Below are positions 4,677 through 6,488 of a DNA stretch of 64,000 nucleotides, in pieces (position 1 is the first letter of the stretch; each line of letters starts with the position of its first letter). The position numbers were made by a program, and so were the translations under genes. Below the pieces are notes generated by a model, which saw only the letters and a list, made by a program, of their open reading frames with translations, was not told where the DNA came from and ran no database searches. The stretch comes from Gemmatimonas sp. (GTDB lineage Bacteria > Gemmatimonadota > Gemmatimonadetes > Gemmatimonadales > Gemmatimonadaceae): contig NZ_JAPZSK010000011.1 of the NCBI RefSeq assembly GCF_027531815.1, positions 68,223 through 132,222 of the forward strand. Reading direction: 5' to 3'.

Positions 4677-5639
4677 TCAGAACACCGCGTGCTCGCCGCG
4701 GTCGTCGGCCACTTCGCCGCGTAGCAGGCGCGCGTAGTGCCCCTCGAGCGTATCGCGTCCGTAGGAGGGGGTGGCGTTGGCGTCGTAGCGCTGCGCCACC
4801 GGGTCCCAGAGCAGCATGGACTCCGTGGCGTAGTAGCGCCCGATGCGCGCGAACTCCGCCTTGTCGCGCAACGGCGGAATGACCGTGCCCAGAGCGCCAA
4901 GCACACCGGCAATCACATCGAAGAGCTTCACCGGCACGCTGGTGAAGCGCGGCGGCTTGCCGGCCACCCGAAAGAGCAATTCGCCCTGCTCGCGCAGGGT
5001 GATGGCGTCTCCAGGGCCACCGATGGGGAGGATCCGATTGGCCCGTGACGGGTCGGTGAGACAGCCGGCGAGATAGTCGGCCACGTCATCGTCGCTGATG
5101 GGCTTGCAGGCGGTGAGCGTGCCGTCGCCGAAGAGCAGGAACGGCTTGCCCTGCTGCACCCGCTTCACCTGCCCCGAAATGCTCTTGAAGAAGGCGGTGG
5201 GGCGCACGATCGACCAGGTGAGCCCCGAGGCCATGAGCGCCGCTTCGAAAGCCAGCTTGGCGTGCTGAAACGCGAGCCGTGGCTTCTGGACACAAATGGC
5301 CGACAGCAGCACGAAGTGCGTGACCCCCGCCGCGCGCGCCGCCTCGAGCACGTGCCGATGCGCCTGGTGGTCGATGGCCCAGGCGTCGGTGGGGCCGCCC
5401 GTACGCGAGGCAAGACAGCTCACCACGGCATCGAACGGTTCCCCGCGAAAGACCTCGCGCGCCAGGCTGGCGGGGCTGGTCACCTCCCCGGTGCGTACCG
5501 TGGTACCCGGAATGTCCGGGGCCGCGCCCGGCTTCGGCCGCACGACGCTCACCACCTCGTGACCGTGGCGCACCAGCGCCCGCGCCGTGGCCCGACCGAT
5601 CGTACCGGTGGCACCCAACAGGAGAACTCGACGGGACAT
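4677..5639 (-). CDS. bciA: Divinyl (bacterio)chlorophyllide 8-vinyl reductase
   Basis: This 320-residue protein is an atypical SDR/NmrA-type NAD(P)H reductase matching BciA and plant DVR, which reduce the 8-vinyl group of divinyl chlorophyllide intermediates. The cofactor loop GATGTIG is at residues 9-15. Blocks characteristic of BciA/DVR follow in order: SCLASRTGG (74-82), HFVLLSAICVQKP (108-120), IVRPTAFFKS (144-153), ACKPIS (177-182), LPIGGPG (204-210), IGRYYATESML (256-266), TPSYGRDTLE (280-289) and a C-terminal GEHAVF. That density of matches goes well beyond a generic epimerase. It lies 45 bp downstream of a barrel-protein gene on the same strand. No other pigment, reaction-centre or carotenoid gene is in the window, so it lies outside any photosynthesis cluster. 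Confidence 0.88.
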   Translation of the reverse strand: MSRRVLLLGATGTIGRATARALVRHGHEVVSVVRPKPGAAPDIPGTTVRTGEVTSPASLAREVFRGEPFDAVVSCLASRTGGPTDAWAIDHQAHRHVLEAARAAGVTHFVLLSAICVQKPRLAFQHAKLAFEAALMASGLTWSIVRPTAFFKSISGQVKRVQQGKPFLLFGDGTLTACKPISDDDVADYLAGCLTDPSRANRILPIGGPGDAITLREQGELLFRVAGKPPRFTSVPVKLFDVIAGVLGALGTVIPPLRDKAEFARIGRYYATESMLLWDPVAQRYDANATPSYGRDTLEGHYARLLRGEVADDRGEHAVF

Positions 5640-5684: not shown

Positions 5685-6488
5685 TCAGTGCGCGCCGGGA
5701 GCCGCGCGAGGCCGGGAAAGAATTCCGGCGACCTCGAGCACCAGCGCGCGCTCCGTGGCCGCACCGCGATTGGGGATCTTGTACCCGGTAATGAAGATCC
5801 AATCGCGGGGCAAATTGAACTGGACCGCTGGAATTGCCGCCGCCAGGTCATGCCGCCCCGAGTACCAGTCGGCCACGAGGCTCACGCGGCGGCGAAATGC
5901 GCCCCCCAGCGGCTGCTCGATGCCGGCCATCATCCCCAGCTTCTCCTTGCCGAACAGCTGCGGGGTGCCGTACGTGGGGCCGGCAGTCAGTCGCGTCTGG
6001 ACGTGGGGCAGTCGCACACTGCCCGACGAGAAGATCCAGCTGCCGGCGCCGGCGCCGTCGAGTGAGACCGGAACAAGCGCCCCCAGCGTGCCGCGCACCT
6101 GCCAGGCCTTCCCGCGTCCGGAGGGGAGCTCATAGACCGACTTGAATCCGGCTGCGATGGTCCGGTTGCCGGTGGCCGGACGACCGAAGTTGACGAACGA
6201 CAGGGCGATTTCGGTGTCGAAGCCGCCGGGAAGCAGCCCCTTGCCCAGATGTCCCGCGCCGTAGGTCAGGAACTGAAAGGTGTTCCAGGCATTGCGCTTC
6301 CCGCGCTCGATCTGGCTTTCGTGGGTGAAGAACCACGCGCCCTTCGGGGTGGCTTCGGCGTTGGGGATGCCCACGATGAGCGACTGTGCGGCGCCTCGGG
6401 CGAAGGGAACGGCAAGCAGCGTCGCAACGGCAACGGCGACGCAGCGCGATTTGAGGGTGGCAAACAGCATCCAGGCGGTCGGCGGCAT
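5685..6488 (-). CDS. Predicted outer-membrane barrel protein
   Basis: I do not recognise a named family for this 267-residue protein. It begins with a hydrophobic signal segment ending near GAAQS, and the rest alternates polar and hydrophobic residues in short glycine-rich beta strands, as in small outer-membrane barrels. Segments such as YELPSGRG, GPTYGTPQLFG and WYSGRHDL resemble those in porin-like proteins of unknown function. It is first on the minus strand, with bciA 45 bp downstream, so the two may share a transcript. The start at 6488 is an ATG lying close to two short palindromes that may regulate it. Confidence 0.65.
   Translation of the reverse strand: MPPTAWMLFATLKSRCVAVAVATLLAVPFARGAAQSLIVGIPNAEATPKGAWFFTHESQIERGKRNAWNTFQFLTYGAGHLGKGLLPGGFDTEIALSFVNFGRPATGNRTIAAGFKSVYELPSGRGKAWQVRGTLGALVPVSLDGAGAGSWIFSSGSVRLPHVQTRLTAGPTYGTPQLFGKEKLGMMAGIEQPLGGAFRRRVSLVADWYSGRHDLAAAIPAVQFNLPRDWIFITGYKIPNRGAATERALVLEVAGILSRPRAAPGAH

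Follow-up and report, generated by a model that had tools for sequence, protein, structure and literature searches.

A bciA gene predicted to serve a distant photosynthesis gene cluster in Gemmatimonas, and the complementary distribution of BciA and BciB in its class

Introduction

In characterised organisms the C8-vinyl group of chlorophyll precursors is reduced by BciA or by BciB, a ferredoxin-type enzyme of the FrhB/HCAR superfamily that is unrelated to BciA and frequently carries the label frhB in annotations. Chlorophyllide oxidoreductase (COR, BchXYZ) differs from both in being nitrogenase-like and in having the reduction of C7=C8 as its main reaction. Rhodobacter sphaeroides lacking bciA nevertheless makes 8-ethyl BChl owing to COR (PMC4214422), and reduction of the C8-vinyl group by COR only has been proposed for Roseiflexus (PMC4214422). 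The BciA of R. sphaeroides is genetically characterised, and that of R. capsulatus is 61% identical to it (PMC4214422). In Acaryochloris marina an frhB gene was experimentally shown to be bciB (PMC4836224).

In the Gemmatimonadota an frhB gene in the bchP-bchG operon of the photosynthesis gene cluster (PGC) has been treated as an F420 hydrogenase subunit or as a replacement of bch2 (PMC8547001, PMC9426454). Words starting with bci or vinyl are absent from the main texts of these two papers, and in open-access main texts we found no report that connects the PGCs of Gemmatimonadota specifically with BciA, BciB or 8-vinyl reduction. Here we describe a gene in a 64,000-nucleotide stretch of a Gemmatimonas contig (the window, meaning the whole stretch analysed) that an earlier note had read from the letters as an orphan bciA. 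With a probability of about 0.94, we regard it as a predicted functional bciA acting in trans in a Gemmatimonas with BChl a-type anoxygenic phototrophy.

Results

The gene (window 4677..5639, minus strand) is an intact open reading frame with an ATG start that encodes 320 amino acids, a putatively NADPH-dependent 8-vinyl (proto)chlorophyllide reductase. It is single copy in the host genome, where the protein matches itself at 100% over 320 amino acids and the next match scores 20.6 bits. The Rossmann dinucleotide-binding motif GATGTIG (residues 9-15, 5595..5615, minus strand) was located by alignment and lies in a Pfam NAD_binding_10 match of 101.5 bits, with a strand predicted at residues 4-8 and a helix at residues 13-24. 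The four sequence blocks on which the BciA reading had first been based were all found, each on the minus strand and in the most conserved part of an alignment of 94 homologues: SCLASRTGG (residues 74-82, 5394..5420), in which S74, C75, A77, S78, R79 and G81 are invariant, HFVLLSAICVQKP (residues 108-120, 5280..5318), IVRPTAFFKS (residues 144-153, 5181..5210) and IGRYYATESML (residues 266-276, 4812..4844). The second and fourth blocks provided the patterns LSAICVQK and YYATESML, respectively, for a cross-genome scan. Both F124 and K128 of an FxxxK motif (5256..5270, minus strand) are invariant in the 94 homologues, and this motif may be the BciA counterpart of YxxxK in classical SDRs. Strict invariance was seen in 53 columns of the alignment, and the window protein agrees with the consensus at every column of 95% or higher conservation among the 93 other homologues. 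R34 and GATGTIG are compatible with NADP binding, and the predicted structure, which is confident (pLDDT 88.9), resembles atypical SDRs, including several that depend on NADP. The window BciA is an ordinary and probably functional member of its family.

Domain searches with Pfam and NCBIfam returned only the generic NAD_binding_10, NmrA and Epimerase families for the window protein, and no BciA-specific model; a BciB-specific model was not returned either. Family names alone were therefore not relied on. The generic domain names, the lack of a BciA model in NCBIfam and the structural matches to SDRs of other kinds (SimC7 and the 39-kDa subunit of complex I, for example) could be taken to mean that the protein is a general NmrA-like or atypical SDR that acts on another substrate and only looks like BciA. 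This is extremely unlikely in view of the scores within the class, where BciA orthologues reach 376 bits or more, far beyond chance similarity, and the next-best SDR reaches 98.7 bits, of the position of the protein in the BciA clade, and of an occurrence that is tied to pufLM and complementary to that of BciB. The tree, built by a quick method and with long outgroup branches from 28 Gemmatimonadota proteins, 37 others and three general SDRs, places the window protein within a BciA clade of purple-bacterial proteins with 100% support against the general SDRs, as the earlier note had proposed to check. Within that clade resolution is weak as to whether BciA entered the Gemmatimonadota once or several times, with five changes, at least two of them forced by starred branches.

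When the genomes of 84,980 species were scanned with an alignment of the 28 Gemmatimonadota BciA proteins, 583 relatives were confirmed, and the best 80 of these were kept. These 80 belong to Gemmatimonadota and otherwise nearly all to Proteobacteria, and the purple-bacterial homologues among them, from Rhodovulum, Rhodoblastus, Rhodobium, Limnohabitans and Rubrivivax among others, are 63-71% identical to the window protein. Many of the proteobacterial genera with BciA relatives are known for phototrophy. The homologue of Rhodobacter sp. CZR27, a congener of R. sphaeroides, is 68% identical over 93%; for comparison, the characterised R. sphaeroides BciA and that of R. capsulatus share 61% (PMC4214422). 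Score gap, identity, tree and conserved columns together bear out the original assignment to BciA. The window protein resembles the BciA of R. sphaeroides and other purple bacteria in clade, conserved blocks and predicted NADP-type SDR fold, and differs in its gemmatimonadotal host and in its chromosomal neighbourhood.

No PGC gene lies beside bciA in the window, and the PGC of the genome is on another contig, in line with the orphan position first described. Such a stand-alone position is usual for bciA: PGC genes were absent from 20 Gemmatimonadota loci inspected together with several kb of their surroundings, disregarding a 28% match to a bchO-like hydrolase in one of them (L076). Gene order around bciA is partly common within the genus and lost beyond it. 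Outside the Gemmatimonadota, 13 of 65 homologue loci have a PGC gene within about 6 kb, 11 with bchG-bch2-bchP or bchC and two more with an lhaA-like gene. In Rhodobacter sp. CZR27, as here, the homologue is outside the PGC; it is flanked there by sox genes and ben genes of an 860-kb replicon. A search of the 250 bases upstream of the window bciA gave no PpsR-like site (TGT-N12-ACA), and 28 bciA upstream regions together held one match against 0.44 expected. Since bciA is outside any bch operon and has no such site upstream, co-regulation with the PGC is unsupported.

The barrel-protein gene described upstream of bciA is real (5685-6488, minus strand). It encodes a predicted exported barrel-like protein, lies 45 bases upstream of bciA and has no match in Pfam or NCBIfam. 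It was dropped as a functional partner, being adjacent to bciA only in the closest relative (G116). One other genome bin (G345) has a BciA match at L034 and a second at C273:556-1320 (70% and 66%, respectively, to the window protein), reflecting either a duplicate gene or mixed strains.

In the host genome (4.3 Mb, 27 contigs, 99.9% complete), a PF00124 search located pufL and pufM at 491.5-493.2 kb of contig C6. They belong to a PGC at about 484-524 kb of C6 that contains bchC, bchX, bchY and bchZ (the last three at 485-490 kb), bchO, acsF, bchM, bchL, bchH and bchG-bch2-bchP-hemA-hemE; genes other than pufLM were named by order, length and cross-genome homology, with no curated model for each. 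Of the pigment genes that the earlier note had suggested looking for, pufL, pufM, bchX, bchY, bchZ and bchL are thus present, and so are bchC, acsF, bchH, bchM, bchG and bchP. Neither of the outcomes that the note had named as a refutation was obtained. A BciB homologue, also to be sought, was absent from the whole genome, and there is no bciB between bch2 and bchP, since these genes abut at C6:520,424-520,427.

Two alternatives had been offered for the orphan gene. That it is a retained or repurposed reductase in a non-phototroph finds some footing in other genomes: one relative (G393) has an intact bciA and, elsewhere, an apparent PGC deletion scar, with no puf, bchY, acsF or bchL found, and in another (G149) bciA is present and no PGC gene was detected. 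For the window gene this reading has next to no probability, its own genome having pufLM and a PGC, which refutes it there. The other alternative, that BciA provides a step which a cluster at another place in the genome lacks, is supported, because the PGC is on C6, BciB is absent and BciA is single copy.

Among 394 genomes of the class that were profiled, 41 have pufLM, 28 a BciA orthologue and 13 BciB, the last scoring at least 547 bits with the next match at 44.5 bits. The 41 pufLM genomes divide into 25 with BciA only, 12 with BciB only, four with neither and none with both (hypergeometric P for no sharing 2e-7, a value that ignores the relatedness of the genomes). The occurrence of BciA is tied to phototrophy: it was found in 25/41 genomes with pufLM versus 3/353 without. 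One of these three (G194) has acsF and bchL; the others are G393 and G149. A BciB genome without pufLM (G066) has a contig with bchG, bch2, bciB and bchP; it probably comes from a phototroph and is short of some contigs. A PufLM tree built by a quick method requires six changes of the BciA label, at least five of them forced by well-supported branches, so replacement or differential loss has been repeated; in one case (G201) a genome with BciA falls within a clade of BciB genomes. Two different pufLM pairs that stand apart in this tree occur in a single genome bin (G335, L202 and L203), from two clusters or from contamination (6%).

The four genomes with neither enzyme (G326, L040/L041; G074, L223; G230, L222; G323, L218) have puf and the bchP operon, with no bciB in it. 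G326 and G074 are also without bch2 between bchG and bchP. Missing sequence may explain some of these metagenome-assembled genomes and hardly all four: G323 is 75% complete, and G326 is in six contigs and 97% complete. By analogy with COR-only reduction elsewhere, BchXYZ presumably performs the C8-vinyl step in these lineages. Together with the ability of the COR of BChl a organisms to reduce the 8-vinyl group (PMC4214422), these phototrophic relatives give some credit to the view that BciA in the window is retained and no longer needed, BchXYZ alone doing the work. We consider this very unlikely, as the window protein keeps every conserved BciA position and BciA is kept in 14/14 puf-bearing Gemmatimonas genomes. 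A functional BciA remains our preferred reading, with the bchX, bchY and bchZ of the host as a possible backup for the same reduction; the formation of 8-ethyl BChl without bciA in R. sphaeroides implies that the window gene may be dispensable.

BciB adjoins bchP in 13/13 genomes and has bch2 on its other side in 12, the thirteenth ending at a contig end; examples are L045:16730-17962, L050:9497-10783 and L054:6937-8205, with others at L058-L070, always adjoining bchP. Among solved structures its closest match is 7-hydroxymethyl chlorophyll a reductase (E 1e-74), as against E 1e-14 or weaker for F420 enzymes, and its score with NCBIfam frhB is 61-73 bits at a cut-off of 331.5. In the genomes read, bch2 is kept beside BciB. 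The so-called frhB of Gemmatimonadota PGCs is probably BciB; from its position, we infer that the gene seen here is the one reported in PMC8547001 and PMC9426454. A search of a plasmid collection for further BciB gave a single distant match only. BciB resembles BciA in catalysing, in characterised organisms, the same step, and their distributions in the Gemmatimonadota are complementary; it differs in its place inside the PGC between bch2 and bchP, and the window's own genome has none.

G393, another Gemmatimonas genome, keeps on one 695-kb contig the gene order that surrounds the PGC in the host genome, and the stretch matching about 477.7-515.3 kb of C6 is absent. The last left-hand and first right-hand kept genes look shortened around L220:14,600-15,220, which is C2 at about 144.6-145.2 kb in G393, the site of an apparent internal PGC deletion of about 38 kb. 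By eye the first right-hand gene is AerR/PpaA-like, and after the junction come a ppsR-like gene, bchG, bch2, bchP and hemA. Homology searches found no orthologues of pufLM, bchY, acsF or bchL. The bciA of this genome is intact, and the genes near it are those found near bciA in other Gemmatimonas. Its product has five departures at near-invariant sites (median 1, maximum 10 in the set) and no change of its own at a universal site, and thus no clear sign of decay. Most of the PGC seems to have been lost by internal deletion, with assembly error as the alternative, and G393 is a possible case of secondary loss of phototrophy with an orphan bciA left behind. The suggestion of a reductase retained in a non-phototroph, which fails for the window's genome, thus apparently holds for this relative, with its PGC remnant and intact bciA. 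In G149, bciA is present and searches, those for pufLM, bchY, acsF and bchL among them, detected no PGC gene.

Discussion

By analogy with characterised BciA enzymes, the window protein would be an atypical SDR that most likely uses NADPH to reduce the vinyl group at C8 of 8-vinyl chlorophyllide to an ethyl group, either ahead of COR or in parallel with it. The gene is presumably expressed, and its product would act in trans at a step that no dedicated enzyme of the host's own PGC covers. In sister lineages the same step would be performed by the unrelated BciB, whose gene lies between bch2 and bchP within the PGC, or, where neither is present, by COR.

The distribution in the class leads us to favour, with some reserve, a scenario in which phototrophic Gemmatimonadota repeatedly exchanged BciA and BciB, none keeping both. 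BciA would be the orphan, NADPH-type enzyme and BciB the unrelated, PGC-embedded, ferredoxin-type one, the choice between them may follow the supply of oxygen or iron, and the frhB of the PGC would be BciB rather than an F420 enzyme or a bch2 substitute.

In phototrophic Gemmatimonadota BciA would account for one step in the making of BChl a, a step on which PMC8547001 and PMC9426454 are silent, and a search confined to the PGC would miss an orphan bciA. The puzzling frhB gene becomes readable as bciB, in parallel to the reassignment in A. marina (PMC4836224). The exchange of BciA and BciB and the apparent PGC deletion scar are of more interest than the window gene itself. One class offers a natural series of lineages with BciA, with BciB, with neither and with the PGC deleted, which serves the questions of why C8-vinyl reductases swap and of the order in which the parts of a transferred photosynthesis pathway disappear.
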